Of a DNA stretch of 20,788 bases, positions 5,938 to 19,861 are shown piece after piece (the first letter of the stretch is position 1; each line of letters starts with the position of its first letter). Position numbers and translations under genes: made by a program. Source of the stretch: a virus; the IMG/VR virus record IMGVR_UViG_3300028027_000285, positions 1-20,788 of that record; one strand, 5' to 3'. The notes under the pieces were generated by a model. It did no database searches. It was not told the DNA's origin and saw only the letters and a program-made list of their open reading frames with translations.

Positions 5938-6347
5938 TGTTTCCACTAGACGCACTATTAAATATTGGCGGTAAGATTCTAGATAAAGTCTTTCCTGACC
6001 CAGCACAGGCAGAGCAAGCAAAACTCAAATTACTTGAAATGCAACAAAATGGCGAGTTGGCTCAAATTGCCGCAGATACCGCAGAACAGCAAGAGCTTAC
6101 TAAAAGACAACAAGCTGACATGGCTTCTGACTCTACGCTATCCAAGAACATTAGACCAGCTACCCTTGTTTTTATTCTTATTGTTTACTCTACCTTTGCA
6201 ATGATGTCCGCTTGGGATATTGAGGTAAACAACAATTATGTAGAGTTGTTAGGCCAATGGGGTATGTTAATAATGTCGTTTTACTTTGGTGGTCGCACCC
6301 TTGAAAAAATTATGGACATGAAAAATGTTAAACAGCCGAAGCCTTAA
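5937..6347 (+). CDS. Holin of the GTA / 3TM family
   Basis: This 136-residue protein resembles the 'holin of 3TMs, for gene-transfer release' family. It has an N-terminal amphipathic MFPLDALLNIGGKILDKVFP segment, then DPAQAEQAKLKLLEMQQNGEL (residues 21-41) and a Gln-rich helix. A SDSTLSKNIRPATLVFI block (residues 64-80) leads into TM helix 1 (about 74-92). TM helix 2 lies at about 103-120 and is followed by GGRTLEKIM. The family's holins accumulate in the inner membrane and open at a set time so that the endolysin can reach the cell wall. The ATG overlaps the stop of the upstream gene. The endolysin gene begins inside its last 23 bases, a tight holin-endolysin coupling. Confidence 0.8.
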   Translation: MFPLDALLNIGGKILDKVFPDPAQAEQAKLKLLEMQQNGELAQIAADTAEQQELTKRQQADMASDSTLSKNIRPATLVFILIVYSTFAMMSAWDIEVNNNYVELLGQWGMLIMSFYFGGRTLEKIMDMKNVKQPKP

Positions 6348-6744
6348 TGACCTGATACCCCCAGCTAAAGAGCGTGTAGAGCACTTTCTTAGTCTTTGCA
6401 AGGATGAGGGTATAGACTTGCTAGTTACATCAACATACCGTGACAATGAATCCCAACAGGCTTTATACGAACAAGGTAGGACTACGGCAGGAAAGGTGGT
6501 TACCAATGCTAAAGCTGGTGATTCTTGGCATAACTGGCGTTGTGCTGTTGATGTCGTACCTTTGGTCAATGGCAAGCCTAATTGGGATGGTTCTGACCCT
6601 GTATGGGCTAAAATCGGAGAACTAGGAGAACAAGCAGGTTTGGAATGGGCTGGTAGATGGCGTTCATTCAAGGAATTAGCCCATTTCCAGTACACGGGTG
6701 GGCTAACCCTCACAGACCTTAAAGAAGGCAAGCAGATCGCCTAA
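6325..6744 (+). CDS. Endolysin, M15 family peptidase (L-alanyl-D-glutamate type)
   Basis: This 139-residue single-domain zinc peptidase of the VanY/M15 superfamily is expected to cut the peptide part of peptidoglycan. Visible motifs are the STYRDNESQQALYEQGR block (residues 36-52), the zinc-binding S-x-H-x-x-x-x-A-x-D motif (SWHNWRCAVDVV, His69 and Asp76) and the C-terminal ELAHFQY motif. That last motif supplies the likely catalytic Glu117 and third ligand His120. The Glu-to-His spacing matches the catalytic Asp/Glu and His of known phage M15 endolysins. There is no signal peptide, so it needs the holin encoded directly upstream, which it overlaps by 23 bases. Its length equals that of the domain, with no separate wall-binding module. 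The stop overlaps the stop of a convergent minus-strand gene. Confidence 0.9.
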   Translation: MLNSRSLNDLIPPAKERVEHFLSLCKDEGIDLLVTSTYRDNESQQALYEQGRTTAGKVVTNAKAGDSWHNWRCAVDVVPLVNGKPNWDGSDPVWAKIGELGEQAGLEWAGRWRSFKELAHFQYTGGLTLTDLKEGKQIA

Positions 6745-8624: not shown

Positions 8625-9395
8625 TTAAAGATTGTTTTTTACCTGATAAAAGCGTAATAAGTGTTGAAAGCACTCCCAGCCCTTTTGAAGCTGGGGTTCT
8701 TCTACTTCTACTAATTTTACTTGGTTAGTTGTGCCGTTGACAAATACGATGGCACACCGAGCGTTGGGCAAGTTTAGCCCTTCACGATATGCCGCTAACT
8801 GTAGTTCATGCTCAAACCATACATCAATTTTATCAAGATCGGTAGTCTTAGTCTTAAAATCTACTATGAACCCCGTACCTTGACCGTTGATTGGTTTAGC
8901 CATAAGGTCGCACTTTCCCCCAAAGCCCAAGGGGTGACCAAATGAGCGTTCACTTAGCCACGGCTGGCTTCCAAACGCACCTTTAAGCGTACTATCAATT
9001 GCATCAAGGTAAGCTGGTTTTTCAGGCATATACACTTGCTCAAAGTAACCTTCAATGATGTTATGAATAGCCGTACCGCGCTCTGCCGCTTCCCTACCAG
9101 TAGCCTTACTATCCTTCATTACCCTAGATAGCCAAACCCCTTCTTCTTCCCCTTCTAGGCGAGGTAATGTAAGCGCGGCAAGGATAGCTTGTTCTTGCAT
9201 CCATCGGAGCAATCCTTCACCTTTGCTGGCAACACCGATGATTGTAGTAACTGAGGGCAGTAAACCGAGTTTTCGTGCATCAGATACATTTGTTGCCCGT
9301 TCCTTGCCCGTAGACGATCCAATGACTGTATAGGCTGGACTGCCGTCTTTAGTATAGAAGTGACCACTTTTTTCTTCCTTTTCTTTAACTATCAT
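8625..9395 (-). CDS. PD-(D/E)XK superfamily nuclease (recombination exonuclease-like)
   Basis: This is a 256-residue protein from the ATG at 9395. That start overlaps the TGA of the methyltransferase (ATGA) and has GGGGA upstream; a TTG 12 bases further up is less likely. The order of motifs is that of Cas4/RecB-type nucleases: RGTAIHNIIEGYF with His111, a Glu149 region, GFGGKCDLM with Asp163, VDFKTKT with Asp179 and Lys181 (the D-x-K core), and QLAAY with Gln199 and Tyr203. Such phage enzymes degrade DNA ends and work with an SSB or annealing protein in recombination and replication. The SSB-like protein is two genes upstream. No cysteine cluster for a Cas4 iron-sulphur site is present. Confidence 0.8.
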   Translation of the reverse strand: MIVKEKEEKSGHFYTKDGSPAYTVIGSSTGKERATNVSDARKLGLLPSVTTIIGVASKGEGLLRWMQEQAILAALTLPRLEGEEEGVWLSRVMKDSKATGREAAERGTAIHNIIEGYFEQVYMPEKPAYLDAIDSTLKGAFGSQPWLSERSFGHPLGFGGKCDLMAKPINGQGTGFIVDFKTKTTDLDKIDVWFEHELQLAAYREGLNLPNARCAIVFVNGTTNQVKLVEVEEPQLQKGWECFQHLLRFYQVKNNL

Positions 9396-9907
9396 TTTTT
9401 TCCCCAAAAATACAAATCTTGACTGTCAGAATTAACAGCAAAGCCAAAATGCTTAAAAATGTTGTGGAAGTCAAAATTGTCCACAAAATCATGTATTGCT
9501 AAGTTTCTGTAATAGTCGTTTGTAAACGGTGATACATCTGCATTAGTGTCTGAAGTGCCGTGCTTGGGTCTGCCAGTAGTAGCACAAGTCATTACTACCA
9601 AGTCTTTAGACAGTTCGCACATCTTTTGAAAAGTTTTATCCCAATGCACATCGTGTTCTAAACATTCACAAGAAATGACGGTATCAAAAGACAGGTTAGG
9701 AAAAGTTAATTCATGCCCCTTGCAAACAAGGTCTACATCCCTACCTTCTCCAATGTCTACCCCTAAATAGTCGCATCCTGTAAAAAACTCCCTTACAGAC
9801 CCGTTAATGTTTAATGACCCTATTTCTAGGACTTTTTTGTTGGCAAAGCTGTCAGGGAAAAAACCCCTAACAGATTGCACAAAGAACATTTGATTAGGAT
9901 GGCTCAT
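9392..9907 (-). CDS. Class I SAM-dependent methyltransferase
   Basis: This 171-residue protein has a Rossmann methyltransferase layout. Motif I is VLEIGSLNINGSV (residues 26-38), motif II is YLGVDIGEGRDVDLV (residues 47-61), and the motif IV region is FDTVISCECLEH (residues 74-85). This matches the Methyltransf_11/type-11 class, which acts on small molecules, sugars, proteins or nucleic acids. No DNA-methylase signature (DPPY, NPPF or PCQ) is present, so a DNA target is not indicated. It sits between the SSB-like and nuclease genes with 1- and 4-base overlaps, so it is co-translated with recombination proteins. The substrate is unknown. Confidence 0.75.
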   Translation of the reverse strand: MSHPNQMFFVQSVRGFFPDSFANKKVLEIGSLNINGSVREFFTGCDYLGVDIGEGRDVDLVCKGHELTFPNLSFDTVISCECLEHDVHWDKTFQKMCELSKDLVVMTCATTGRPKHGTSDTNADVSPFTNDYYRNLAIHDFVDNFDFHNIFKHFGFAVNSDSQDLYFWGKK

Positions 9908-10798: not shown

Positions 10799-10833
10799 TT
10801 GCAAATAGTTGTAAAAATGTTAAGATAGCTTAT
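10799..10833 (+). promoter_or_regulatory. Promoter/operator for the Cro-like gene, predicted leaderless start
   Basis: The -35-like TTGCAA (10799-10804), a 16-bp spacer and the -10 TAAGAT (10821-10826) place transcription start at about 10832-10834, on the ATG itself. The operator-like TTAAGATAGCTTAT (10820-10833) covers the -10 and the first two bases of the start codon. There is no Shine-Dalgarno in the preceding 25 bases. Binding of the encoded regulator here would give autorepression. Confidence 0.6.
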
Positions 10834-11062
10834 GGATAAAATTACCGCAACAGCAATGATTCGTCTTTTAGGTGGGCCAACAAGGGTATCAAAATTGGTC
10901 AATGTGTCAGTACCAGCCGTATCTATGTGGCAAAACGGGGACATTCCTTACGATAAGCTGGTGATTCTAGCCGCCACCCTAGAAAAAGAATCACATGGGC
11001 TAATTACCCGTAAAAACTTGTTTCCTAAGAATTACAAGCTAATTTGGCCTGAACTTGAATAA
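10832..11062 (+). CDS. Cro/YdaS-like helix-turn-helix regulator
   Basis: This 76-residue protein has the length and layout of Cro/YdaS-type phage regulators. An N-terminal helix is followed by a helix-turn-helix at about residues 17-35 (TRVSKLVNVSVPAVSMWQNG), a third helix (YDKLVILAATLEKES), and the typical tail LITRKNLFPKNYKLIWPEL. Such proteins bind palindromic operators as dimers and control early phage transcription. The gene is divergent from the recombination operon. Two copies of the TTAAG-N4-CTTAA repeat lie between them, one overlapping its own start codon. No CI-like partner is present in the window. The start lacks a ribosome-binding site, and the next in-frame ATG (10853) has none either, so a leaderless message is the simplest reading. 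Confidence 0.8.
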   Translation: MDKITATAMIRLLGGPTRVSKLVNVSVPAVSMWQNGDIPYDKLVILAATLEKESHGLITRKNLFPKNYKLIWPELE

Positions 11063-11609
11063 CATTACCCTTTGCTGTATTGATTCGGTACAGCCTGACA
11101 AGGCTAAAAAGGCAATGGACAGGTGCAAGGAATACTTTAATTTTGGCGGTGAAATCTTTATAACTGACCCCCAAATCAATAGCCGCCAAGCGTACAGCAA
11201 ATTTATCCTTCAGGAACTGCATAAACACATCTACACGGACTTTGTTTTGATTGTGCAATGGGATGGGTACATTATTAATCCTGACGCTTGGAACGATCAA
11301 TTTTTAGAATATGACTACATTGGGGCGGTATGGCCTTGGCATCCAATGGGTAGACAAGTGGGCAATGGTGGCTTTAGCCTACGCTCAAAAGTGCTTTGCC
11401 AGCTAACAGCCAGCCCTAACTTTGTTTATTCTGATGACAATGAAGATGACCAAATTTGCCATTTAAACAGGGTGTATCTAGAAAATCAAGGTATTAAGTT
11501 TGCCCCTGTAGAAATAGCCCGTTATTTTAGTTTTGAGCGTGAACTGTCTAATATCAAAACATTCGGTTTTCACGGGGATTTTAATTTTGAAAGACTTGGG
11601 TTATACTAA
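11055..11609 (+). CDS. DUF5672 glycosyltransferase-like protein
   Basis: This is a 184-residue protein with a TTG start at 11055, overlapping the Cro-like gene by 8 bases. A later ATG would delete the first beta strand (ITLCCID), so TTG is preferred. Family-like motifs are VLIVQWDG (residues 64-71, in the place of a DxD-type site), NPDAW, YDYIGAVWPW (residues 86-95), VGNGGFSLRS (residues 102-111) and EDDQIC (residues 130-135). This pattern matches DUF5672, a GT-A-fold-like family found in bacterial surface-glycan loci and in phages. It presumably transfers a sugar to an unknown acceptor. Being cotranscribed with an early regulator is unusual for a structural modifier and suggests action on a host or phage target early in infection; that is inference. 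Confidence 0.75.
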   Translation: MNNITLCCIDSVQPDKAKKAMDRCKEYFNFGGEIFITDPQINSRQAYSKFILQELHKHIYTDFVLIVQWDGYIINPDAWNDQFLEYDYIGAVWPWHPMGRQVGNGGFSLRSKVLCQLTASPNFVYSDDNEDDQICHLNRVYLENQGIKFAPVEIARYFSFERELSNIKTFGFHGDFNFERLGLY

Positions 11610-11641
11610 TCAACATTGAGGACTGAAACACTCGATAAGAT

Positions 11642-11735
11642 AGGGTTTTAGAAGTGACTTTGTGGGTTTAGGAAATAAGATAAGAGGTATTTCTTAAGCC
11701 GTTTCAGCATAAAGCCACTTTTAAAGCCCTTTTTT
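11642..11735 (+). terminator. Very long intrinsic terminator after the DUF5672 gene
   Basis: An outer stem pairs 11642-11664 with 11708-11730. It has one A/C mismatch and three G-U pairs and includes AAGTGACTTTGTG against CATAAAGCCACTT. It continues without a 5' gap into an inner 13-bp stem, 11665-11677 with 11688-11700 (two G-U pairs), capped by a 10-base loop. On the 3' side a 7-base bulge, GTTTCAG (11701-11707), separates the stems. The outer stem is followed at once by six Ts (11730-11735). This is the layout of a rho-independent terminator, but roughly three times the usual stem length. The bulge is the exact complement of CTGAAAC at 11623-11629. Confidence 0.75.
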
Positions 11736-12012
11736 ATTGTTCATTCCCATTCGTACTCCAAGCGTTATTAAGCACCTAAATGGGTGGCGTGGAATAGAAC
11801 ATGGGCTGGTTTACACCTGACAGCAAGCCCCGTAGCGTTGAGTGGCGACTACACAAGATACAAGGACAATGGTGATAGACAACCTTGTAATCGAATGAAC
11901 ACTACCTTTGGGAGCATTAGTTCGGGACACATCCTGAATGGATGAAGGCTTATCACCTTTGGGTAACCTATGGCAAAAAAGCAACACATTAGGGAAAACA
12001 CCTATAAATAAA
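11736..12012 (+). other. Non-coding region with consecutive hairpins, candidate structured RNA
   Basis: No supported gene lies between 11610 and 12049. After the terminator, successive inverted repeats occur: TGTTCATTCC with GGAATAGAACA (11738-11747 with 11791-11801, one bulged A) enclosing CACC/GGTG (11773-11776 with 11783-11786); GGGC/GCCC (11803-11806 with 11827-11830); GTAGCG/CG-a-CTAC (11832-11837 with 11846-11852); TACAAGG/CCTTGTA (11859-11865 with 11883-11889); and TTCGGGA/TCCTGAA (11921-11927 with 11932-11938). ACCTTTGGG occurs twice (11904 and 11955). The density of GC-containing stems is higher than in other gaps of this window. It may be a phage ncRNA or an origin-like element. No tRNA cloverleaf is visible. 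Confidence 0.4.
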
Positions 12013-12043
12013 TAGACATCATTAAGTTTACTTAACATATACT
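12013..12043 (+). promoter_or_regulatory. Promoter/operator for the replication operon
   Basis: The -35-like TAGACA (12013-12018) is followed by -10 TATACT (12038-12043, 19-bp spacing), or by CATATA (12036-12041) at 17 bp. The operator-like TTAAGTTTACTTAA (12022-12035) fills the spacer. With TATACT the predicted transcription start falls at 12050, the A of the first ATG, and no Shine-Dalgarno precedes that ATG. Confidence 0.6.
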
Positions 12044-12375: not shown

Positions 12376-12592
12376 AGAAAACGCTGATGGCTCTGCCAAT
12401 GCTGAAGTTGATTTTGACAAAGAAGGACTTGAGTGCCTTGTTCAGCACGGACTTATCAGTCTTATTACCCAAGGACTTGATGTTCACAAAGTTAAACCCG
12501 AAGGTGATGAAGCACTTATTCAACGAGCAAAAGACATCATCAAAGATTTTATTGAAAAAGACAAAAAACTGATTGAAGCGGCAACTTTGTAG
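12350..12592 (+). CDS. Small phage protein, unknown function
   Basis: This 80-residue protein begins at the ATG at 12350, which fits the MKIQVKIIKENADGSANAEV opening; a TTG 9 bases earlier is the alternative. It appears to be a beta-strand pair followed by an FDKEGLECLVQHGLISLITQ helix and a lysine-rich C-terminal helix. The 'DKEGLE.L...G...L...' core is shared with small phage proteins of unknown role. It overlaps its upstream neighbour by 26 bases. Confidence 0.6.
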   Translation: MKIQVKIIKENADGSANAEVDFDKEGLECLVQHGLISLITQGLDVHKVKPEGDEALIQRAKDIIKDFIEKDKKLIEAATL

Positions 12593-12602
12593 AGATAGAC
12601 AA

Positions 12603-12980
12603 ATGACCTTTGCCGTGTTCTATGCCCTGTATCCCCGTAAAATGGCTCGTAAAGACGCTGAAAAGGCTTGGCGGTCTATGACTACCGATGAGCAGGAAAA
12701 AGCCTTAGAAGCCCTGCCACAGCATCTTAAATATTGGAAGATTAAGGAAACCGCCAAAGACTTTATTCCATACCCTGCCAGTTGGTTACGGGCTGGGCGT
12801 TATGATGACGAACTGGATATTGAACCTTTAAAGAAACCTGAGTTGCCTTGGTATTCCAGCGAAGAACTTACTGCTAAAAAAGCCCAAGAAGTTAATTGCC
12901 CTGCTTACGCTGGTGAGGGTTGGCAACAATGGCGAGCACGGATTAGTCAGAAGATAAAGCAACTTGAAGAACAAACCTGA
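12603..12980 (+). CDS. Phage replication-type protein with FYxLYPRK motif
   Basis: This is a 125-residue protein from the ATG at 12603 (AGAGA upstream; a TTG 30 bases earlier would add an unlikely basic leader). FYALYPRKMARKDAEKAW (residues 6-23) and the later KETAKDFIPYPASWLRAGRYDDE are the signature of the C-terminal domain of many phage replication initiators and helicase-loader-like proteins, here as a stand-alone protein. In relatives this domain lies behind a DNA-binding winged helix, which is missing here. The protein may recruit or load the host replicative helicase. This is the only replication-type gene in the operon, implying that the phage depends on host replisome parts or encodes others elsewhere. 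Confidence 0.7.
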   Translation: MTFAVFYALYPRKMARKDAEKAWRSMTTDEQEKALEALPQHLKYWKIKETAKDFIPYPASWLRAGRYDDELDIEPLKKPELPWYSSEELTAKKAQEVNCPAYAGEGWQQWRARISQKIKQLEEQT

Positions 12981-13493: not shown

Positions 13494-13669
13494 CACCATT
13501 AAAATTAACCGAAGAATTTTTAATTCTTAAATTATTTTGCAAAATGTATGAGGATGCTTTAAACCGTAAGGACTACACACAAATGCTGGAATTAAGCGTT
13601 GACATTGCAGAATCAGGCGAAAAGCTGGAACAAATGACCGTGGATCATATCAATGGCCACCAAAAATGA
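13490..13669 (+). CDS. Small unknown protein overlapping both neighbours
   Basis: It encodes 59 residues, MTPLKLTEEFLILKLFCKMY, then EDALNRKDYTQMLELSVDIA, then ESGEKLEQMTVDHINGHQK. It is soluble, helical and slightly acidic. The ATG overlaps the TGA of the upstream gene (ATGA), and the last 17 bases overlap the start of the Ref-like nuclease. This continuous chain of overlapping genes with no gap is the main evidence that it is translated. Confidence 0.6.
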   Translation: MTPLKLTEEFLILKLFCKMYEDALNRKDYTQMLELSVDIAESGEKLEQMTVDHINGHQK

Positions 13670-13931
13670 GAAAGAAAAGTACAGAAAAATCGCTGAATTG
13701 GGATGCTCATTATGTAGGCATCAAGGCAACGAGGGAACTCCAGCAGAATTGCATCACATTAGACGAGGTAATATCCCTCGCTCTCAAGCACCCGTCATTC
13801 CGCTCTGCCCCTATCACCATCGCGGATCAAATACCAGTATTCACGGCATGGGTAGAAAACGCTTTGAAAGGGAGTACGCTATCTCGGAAGAACAGTTGTT
13901 GGAGAAAACGGAAAGCCTTTTAAATGAGTAG
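13653..13931 (+). CDS. Ref-like HNH nuclease (RecA-dependent nuclease family)
   Basis: This is a 92-residue protein. Its motifs are CSLCRHQG (Cys18, Cys21), AELHHIRRG (His34, His35), RSQAPVIPLCPYHHRGSN (Cys52, His55, His56, Asn60), then SIHGMGRKRFEREY (His64). This order (a Cys pair, LHH, PLC-x-x-HH and GSxxxIHGMG) is typical of the Ref family named after the P1 recombination enhancement function, an HNH-type nuclease that cuts DNA at RecA filaments. It covers the nuclease domain only, without the DNA-binding N-terminal extension of P1 Ref. The start at 13653 overlaps the upstream gene by 17 bases, and its end overlaps a small membrane-protein gene. Confidence 0.8.
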   Translation: MATKNEKEKYRKIAELGCSLCRHQGNEGTPAELHHIRRGNIPRSQAPVIPLCPYHHRGSNTSIHGMGRKRFEREYAISEEQLLEKTESLLNE

Positions 13932-18191: not shown

Positions 18192-18515
18192 ATGGATTCT
18201 AAAGTAGAACAAACTAGAAAAAAGACAGGCGGTCGCTCTGTAGGTACTCCTAATAAGTCCACAGCAATGGCTAGGGAAGCGATAGCACAGTTCGTAGAGG
18301 GTAACGCCTACAAGATGCAAGAATGGCTAGAACAGGTCGCTGTTGGCGTTAAAAACGATGACGATAAATTTATAGTATTACCTAATCCTGAAAAGGCTTT
18401 TGGTATGTTGCAGAGCGTCATGGAATATCACTTGCCTAAATTAGCCCGTACTGAACACTCAGGTGATGAAGATCAACCTGTCAAGATCATTCACGAACAC
18501 AAGTTCTTAGATTGA
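18192..18515 (+). CDS. Terminase small subunit-like protein
   Basis: This 107-residue protein lies directly before and overlaps the large terminase by 4 bases (TTGA), the normal place for the small subunit. Its N-terminus is basic with KKTGGRSVGTPNKST (residues 10-24), a linker-like DNA-contact segment found in many small terminases of this type. A helical EAIAQFVEGNAYKMQEWLEQ region and a C-terminal IIHEHKFLD follow. AAGG stands 4 bases before the ATG. It would recognise the packaging site and feed DNA to the large subunit. The call depends strongly on position; the sequence itself is less specific. Confidence 0.7.
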   Translation: MDSKVEQTRKKTGGRSVGTPNKSTAMAREAIAQFVEGNAYKMQEWLEQVAVGVKNDDDKFIVLPNPEKAFGMLQSVMEYHLPKLARTEHSGDEDQPVKIIHEHKFLD

Positions 18516-19861
18516 AAGAATTAGTTAAGAGGTACGAATACCCTTACAAGGCAAGGGATGCGTTCCTAGACTTTCATAGACGAGATCAACGCTGGGCAGT
18601 TTTAGTATGTCATAGGAGAGCAGGGAAAACGGTTGCTACTATATGCGACACGATCCGCAGGGCAGTCATGGAAAAGAAACCTGACGGCAGATACGCTTAC
18701 ATTGCACCGTACTACGCACAGGCTAAGAACATTGCTTGGGACTATCTACTAAAGTTTGCAGAGCCAGCCATAGTTAAAGCCAATCAATCTGAATTATGGG
18801 TAGAGTTAGTCAATGGCTCAAAGATACGCTTATTTGGTGCTGACAACCCTGACGCATTACGGGGTTTATACCTAGATGGGGTAGTTCTTGATGAGTATGC
18901 AGACATGAAGCCTAGATTATGGGGTGAGATTGTTAGACCTTTACTTACAGACCGTCAAGGTTGGGCTACCTTTATTGGTACGCCAAAGGGACACAATGCG
19001 TTCTATGACATATACAACGAAGCCCAAAAGAACGACAACTGGTATGTTAAAACATTAAAAGCAGATAAATCAGGGTTACTACCAATAGCTGAATTGGAAG
19101 ATGCTCAAGCAACCATGTCTACCAACCAGTACGAGCAGGAATTCTTATGCTCATTTGAAGCCGCTATCCTTGGGGCGTATTACGGTCAGGAAATGCGTAG
19201 GATCACCGATCTTGATCGTATTACTACGGTTGACTATGACCCGATGTTTCCCTGCCATACCGTTTGGGATCTTGGTTTCAATGACAGTACGGCTATTTGG
19301 TGGTTTCAGGTGGTATACGGTGAGATACGGGTATTGGATCACCACTCTAGCAATGGTCAATCCATACCGTTTTACACTATGTTGCTAGACCAAAAAGAAA
19401 ATGAATTTGGGTACAAATATGGCTTTCATTACCTGCCGCATGACGCTAGAGCCAAAACACTAGCTAGTGGTGGTAAGAGCATAATTGAGCAAATTTCTGC
19501 AAAAATTGACATAAAACATCTAAAAATTGTTCCAAACCTGTCAATTCAGGATGGAATACAAGCAACACGACTTGCATTAACTCGCACTTGGTTTGATAAT
19601 AGATGTGAAGAAGGTATCGAATGTTTAAGACAATATCAAAGGGAGTGGGATGATGATAAAAAATGTTTTAGAGATCGCCCGAAACACGATTTCACCAGTC
19701 ATTCAGCAGACGCTATGCGGTATCTCAGCATTGTATGGAAGGATGAGGACAGCCCTATCCTCAAAGATACAAGGATTAAAGGACTTCATGTCGGTCAAAC
19801 AGAAGTAACTCTGCAAGAATTATGGAATCAAACCCCCAAAGTAATTAACAGGAGAATTTAA
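18512..19861 (+). CDS. Terminase large subunit
   Basis: This 449-residue protein has a TTG start overlapping the small-subunit stop. The ATPase domain shows Walker A CHRRAGKT (residues 33-40), Walker B GVVLDEYA (Asp127, Glu128) and coupling motif GTPKG (156-160). The nuclease domain shows WDLGFNDST (Asp253), PHDAR (Asp311) and FTSHSADAMRY (Asp400), the three acidic residues of an RNase-H-like active site. Together with the small subunit it pumps DNA into the prohead and cuts the concatemer. The length is normal for compact phage terminases. The next gene begins immediately after the stop, preceded by AGGAG. Confidence 0.95.
   Translation: MKELVKRYEYPYKARDAFLDFHRRDQRWAVLVCHRRAGKTVATICDTIRRAVMEKKPDGRYAYIAPYYAQAKNIAWDYLLKFAEPAIVKANQSELWVELVNGSKIRLFGADNPDALRGLYLDGVVLDEYADMKPRLWGEIVRPLLTDRQGWATFIGTPKGHNAFYDIYNEAQKNDNWYVKTLKADKSGLLPIAELEDAQATMSTNQYEQEFLCSFEAAILGAYYGQEMRRITDLDRITTVDYDPMFPCHTVWDLGFNDSTAIWWFQVVYGEIRVLDHHSSNGQSIPFYTMLLDQKENEFGYKYGFHYLPHDARAKTLASGGKSIIEQISAKIDIKHLKIVPNLSIQDGIQATRLALTRTWFDNRCEEGIECLRQYQREWDDDKKCFRDRPKHDFTSHSADAMRYLSIVWKDEDSPILKDTRIKGLHVGQTEVTLQELWNQTPKVINRRI

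Follow-up and report, generated by a model that had tools for sequence, protein, structure and literature searches.

Like intrinsic terminators, the element described here has a stem with a GC-rich base and a T tract after it. Unlike these terminators, it has a two-turn stem with an inner stem, a 7-nt bulge that pairs with the loop of a hairpin further upstream, and a predicted promoter of its own. In type III toxin-antitoxin systems, pseudoknot repeats in tandem precede a toxin gene. The element has one pseudoknot and precedes a noncoding RNA, and no gene next to it was noticed, in passing, to be toxin-like. The putL and putR RNAs of phage HK022, which are about 70 nt long and contain two stem-loops, act on the polymerase to suppress terminators (PMC9378689). 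Both the put RNAs and the element are folded phage RNAs from near an early promoter, but their architecture differs. GOLLD and ROOL are large structured phage RNAs that are often located near tRNA islands, and several pseudoknots are reported for ROOL (PMC12286853). These RNAs, like the element, are phage-encoded, but they are much larger; the element has no Rfam match, and an association with tRNA islands was rejected because only 3 of the 60 loci tested contained tRNAs. AgvB is a trans-acting phage small RNA that mimics targets of a host small RNA (reviewed in PMC12197685). It and the element are both short phage RNAs; for the element, no antisense match of 13 nt or longer was found elsewhere in the same locus, to which this comparison applies.

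No Rfam 15 family matched the element itself at the gathering score, and the best hit, MIR8706 (29.6 bits versus a threshold of 95), is a chance hairpin match. Another family, RF02932 (Betaproteobacteria-1 RNA), is a possible partner of the element and not the element itself. We call the element a member of the phage structured small RNAs, since its predicted promoter, 5' hairpin (P0) and pseudoknot exceed what belongs to the terminator family. It adds a widespread phage RNA family that is missing from Rfam 15, with a fold that rests on dozens of independently matched pairings, and the orphan family RF02932 is now located in a recurring genomic pair. The combination of a small RNA conserved in shape with an exchangeable large RNA provides a direct handle on the role of large structured phage RNAs.

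Anatomy of the element

The window, i.e., the whole stretch of DNA that was analyzed, is a virus record of 20,788 bases. It encodes an endolysin (6325-6744), an exonuclease (8625-9407), a repressor-like protein (10832-11062), a replication initiation-like protein (12573-12980), an HNH/Ref-like protein (13653-13931) and a terminase (18512-19861). The element is located on the + strand, in a noncoding stretch between the end of an open reading frame at 11609 and an early gene block that begins at about 12136. A predicted -10 hexamer, TATACT (11602-11607), overlaps the 3' end of this reading frame (11055-11609). It is followed by the hairpin P0 (11615-11620 paired with 11631-11636), the first base of which approximates the predicted transcription start, and the loop of which contains CTGAAAC (11623-11629), the 5' strand of the pseudoknot. 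The outer stem P1 (5' arm, 11643-11664; 3' arm, 11708-11729) has 21 pairs and one A.C mismatch and spans about two helical turns. It encloses the inner hairpin P2 (11665-11700, with 11665-11677 paired to 11688-11700; 13 pairs and a 10-nt loop) and, at the P1/P2 junction, the 7-nt 3' bulge GTTTCAG (11701-11707), which is the exact complement of CTGAAAC and the 3' strand of the pseudoknot. Six T residues directly 3' of P1 (11730-11735) form the T tract and the expected RNA 3' end; a stable stem with a T run immediately 3' is what characterizes intrinsic terminators at the sequence level.

A preliminary description of this hairpin gave the correct coordinates. Its inner stem of about 13 bp and the single mismatch are retained here, and the outer stem, put at about 23 bp, is slightly shorter. 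That description overlooked the position of CTGAAAC within the P0 loop, which makes the pairing one between a loop and a bulge.

The + strand RNA of positions 11600-11760 has a folding energy of -52.1 kcal/mol, compared to a mean of -28.9 for shuffled sequences (z = -6.2, with 0 of 200 shuffles as good), and the isolated unit (11615-11736) has a folding z of -6.26. An RNA transcribed from the - strand was ruled out, as its folding z is -0.97 and it has no T run.

Conservation of the loop-bulge pairing

A 20-mer at position 11770, just downstream of the element, is present in 34 viral contigs, and at least 119 stretches matched the downstream element when it was written in degenerate form. Relatives collected in this way, via the downstream element, yielded 95 distinct upstream regions, 87 of which contain a long stem that ends in a T tract (T4 or longer directly after the stem). 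Among annotated phages and plasmids, the notable matches were only MW202753 and Acidovorax phage AP1. Automated folding yielded P1, P2 and a 3' bulge for 54 loci, and in these the bulge was compared with its own 5' flank. The bulge is 7 nt long in 49 of these loci, and a perfect Watson-Crick match of at least 7 bp to the own flank was found in 48. The corresponding frequency was 0.55% when the bulge was compared to the flank of another locus and 1.5% for shuffled flanks. A looser test that included all 87 loci gave matches of at least 7 bp in 69 of them, compared to 7% across loci. Matches to the own flank thus far exceed the cross-locus and shuffled rates, so that the exact complementarity pointed out in the preliminary description is not a product of chance. 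Altogether, 25 distinct helix sequences occur among 51 folded loci, each matched to its own bulge (for example, GTAGCAA/TTGCTAC, TTGATACC/GGTATCAA and GTCGGAG/CTCCGAC).

Other features of the fold are similarly constant among the 51 loci: P0 has at least 4 bp in 50 loci, P1 has 20-24 pairs in 50 (21-22 pairs in 35), the length is 117-132 nt in 47, and the P1/P2 junction lacks a 5' gap in 46. A P1 of about two turns and a gapless junction would allow P0 to reach the bulge. In the class of loci whose linker measures at least 20 nt, a second pseudoknot between the linker and the P2 loop (at least 6 bp, G-U allowed) can be drawn in 18 of 18 loci; the cross-locus rate is high (46% for at least 6 bp, 23% for at least 7 bp), the loci being closely related and the control accordingly weak. 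This second pseudoknot is absent from the class to which the window belongs.

P0, P1, P2 and the pseudoknot were examined for covariation in 26 aligned close relatives, among them the named phage MW202753. In this alignment, 96.3% of cells are paired, and both sides change in 23 pairs, compared to 8.9 in shuffles and 2-8 when the structure is slid. The helix formed by 11623-11629 and 11701-11707 is paired in 100% of cells; four of its pairs are altered on both sides, and a single position takes GC, UA, AU and CG. Twelve P1 pairs are altered on both sides, and P0 covaries as well. Within helices, G-U pairs outnumber A.C mismatches (107 versus 34), which favors the + strand as the RNA. The compensatory changes on both strands of the loop-bulge helix strongly support the pseudoknot that the preliminary description had proposed; that description had also named covariation in relatives as one check, and the absence of compensatory changes, together with no effect of disrupting either segment, as grounds to abandon the idea.

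The slot RNA and its exchange

A second conserved structured RNA, hereafter the slot RNA, is located on the + strand at 11752-11972, its first base lying 22 nt past the point where the T tract begins. It is present in more than 100 viral contigs, its stems covary (11 pairs altered on both sides in an alignment of 26 sequences), and no Rfam family matched 11752-11972, or the window as a whole, at the gathering score. A search with a pattern of the element alone recovered 36 contigs, 24 of them distinct (class 1), and in each of these 24 loci the slot is occupied by a second conserved RNA-like element. The occupant is the slot RNA of the window in 13 loci, a variant of it in four, RF02932 in five, and a third conserved sequence, a candidate RNA, in two. 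RF02932 was detected directly 3' of the element in L129, L132, L136, L138 and L150 with scores of 87-93 bits (the threshold is 49.4 bits, which is not reached in the window itself).

A search with the RF02932 motif alone returned 113 distinct loci, some of which are plainly coding. A long terminator stem is present upstream in 50 of them, and in 30 of the latter the pseudoknot match reaches at least 7 bp, compared to about 7% across loci; about half of the RF02932-motif loci lack the element. In Acidovorax phage AP1, RF02932 follows the primase gene and the element is absent. Likewise, in L002 and L013 the slot RNA directly follows the repressor-like gene with no element. Hence, the element often accompanies structured phage RNAs, and these are of more than one kind; the reverse does not hold.

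In most loci, the T tract precedes the slot RNA by 18-34 nt, and no -10-like element was seen by eye in this spacer. Complementarity between the element and the slot RNA is not above the cross-locus level (mean 7.02 versus 7.07), and pairing between the two RNAs was therefore rejected. The identification of the slot RNA as a group I intron or an IRES-like element was dropped for want of evidence.

Several additional features of the slot RNA were observed. Its 5' domain is nearly invariant (CGTACTCC...AAGCACC...GGTGGCG), its end is TCACCYTTGGGNAACCTATG (alignment A2), and a long-range pairing GGTGA/TCACC is likely. In L007, L095, L043 and L097, the 5' domain is fused to quite different 3' parts. 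The third conserved slot sequence (GTAAAGGCTGTAAATAC...) directly follows the element in L139 and L140 and possibly represents a further RNA family. In L100, L108, L122 and L124, the slot RNA has its 3' end at the position where the next gene has its start codon (CCTATG, GCTATG); this ATG is not kept in L015, L061 and L107. In L107, which has three tRNA genes upstream, the element and the slot RNA are separated by an extra segment of about 200 nt that is closed by the long inverted repeat GACTGCTTAAAGATGATG/CATCATCTTTAAGCAGTT. In L126 (MW202753.1, 31883-32669, - strand), both RNAs lie under annotated "hypothetical protein" CDSs that are probably spurious.

Transcription and possible functions of the element

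When the best -10 hexamer is sought over 60 nt, it ends 2-9 nt 5' of P0 in 45 of 49 loci; no clear -35 is present in the window copy of the predicted promoter. Given the fixed place of the hexamer before P0, the element probably gives rise to a separate RNA of about 120 nt, which would extend from promoter to terminator at about 11615-11735. The suggestion of a regulatory small RNA in the preliminary description thus gains support from the hexamer together with the T tract. We favor, with moderate confidence, the interpretation that the hairpin forms the main body of a compact phage small RNA, about 120 nt long, that is transcribed on its own, is made by many lake phages and is encoded on the + strand of the window.

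The loop-bulge pairing could, as previously proposed, switch termination by competing with the outer stem. However, the bulge and its partner share no bases with P1, the two helices can coexist, and no competition with termination is expected. Because the pairing can form alongside the terminator stem, we read it as a fixed tertiary contact and not as a switch. Folding of successive prefixes of the window RNA suggested formation of the loop-bulge helix with the polymerase near 11707-11718 and closure of P1 from 11724 on. Transcription would start at P0 from the adjacent -10 element, the loop-bulge contact would form before P1 closes, and P1 with the T tract would then release the RNA. The product would have both ends in helices, within a single rigid fold.

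How such an RNA might act is suggested by what is conserved. The shape is kept while nearly every paired base is replaceable, there is no complementarity to the slot RNA above the cross-locus level, and the locus contains no long antisense match; we infer from this that antisense pairing is a less likely mode of action for the small RNA than its shape, to which a protein or a large complex would bind. As for the slot RNA, no promoter of its own was seen, and partial read-through of the element's terminator would be the simplest route to its synthesis. Tentatively, the two may form a two-RNA phage cassette, in which a small RNA of fixed shape and an exchangeable large RNA (at least three sequence families) would jointly serve as an early-infection device; we regard this as possible and would not yet rely on it. 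If true, it would be an RNA device, e.g., for host takeover or counter-defence.

Points against the small-RNA interpretation are the missing clear -35 in the window and the loci in which the second RNA occurs without the element (L002 and L013 for the slot RNA; phage AP1 and about half of the motif loci for RF02932). A cis-acting role would likewise agree with the close and rather constant distance between the element and the slot RNA, and the main rival to the small-RNA interpretation is control of read-through into the latter. Lambdoid phages place regulated terminators between the repressor and replication genes. The element is likewise located between a repressor-like gene and replication genes, and could be a conditional terminator or attenuator that stops repressor-side transcription before the slot RNA, unless read-through to the slot RNA and early genes is permitted by a pseudoknot-sensing factor of the phage or the host. 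The short distance from the T tract to the slot RNA and a spacer devoid of -10-like elements are in line with this model. Against it, the pseudoknot and the terminator stem share no bases and show no two-state competition, neither an antiterminator helix nor a strong competitor was apparent in the prefix folds of the window, and a promoter directly before P0 would give a separate transcript. On balance, we consider conditional termination rather unlikely.

RNase III can use duplexes of 20-24 pairs, and the near-perfect P1 duplex has this length in nearly all loci. The P1/P2 duplex might thus be a processing site, as was also raised in the preliminary description, that would cut the upstream transcript off from the slot RNA and the genes after it. 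Such a role leaves the T tract, the promoter before P0 and the conserved pseudoknot unexplained, and we regard it as improbable. It is still less probable that the element acts on the transcribing polymerase in the manner of the HK022 put RNAs and confers terminator resistance. Its position in the early region near a promoter, a folded nascent RNA, and the two stem-loops of the likewise phage-borne put RNAs (PMC9378689) are compatible with this idea; however, put RNAs are about 70 nt long, "pseudoknot" is not mentioned in that article, and the RNA of the element ends in its own terminator. No better chance is given to an ordinary strong terminator of the upstream gene, for which the stem, T tract and very stable fold would speak: it is rejected by the covariation and by the own versus cross-locus bulge matches, since with 25 perfectly matched pseudoknot versions in 51 loci the pairing cannot be incidental, and P0 and the promoter are also conserved.

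It should be noted that conserved inverted repeats, TAGGGAAAACACCTA and TTAAGNNNACTTAA, follow the slot RNA in many loci (about 11985-12040 in the window) and have the appearance of repressor operators with a promoter; in L007 and L109, TAGGGAAAACACCTA recurs on the upstream side of the element. In L101 and L121, other inverted repeats (CGCTGTC..GCGACAG and ACACAC..GTGTGT, respectively) overlap the predicted promoter of the element, and this arrangement suggests repressor control.
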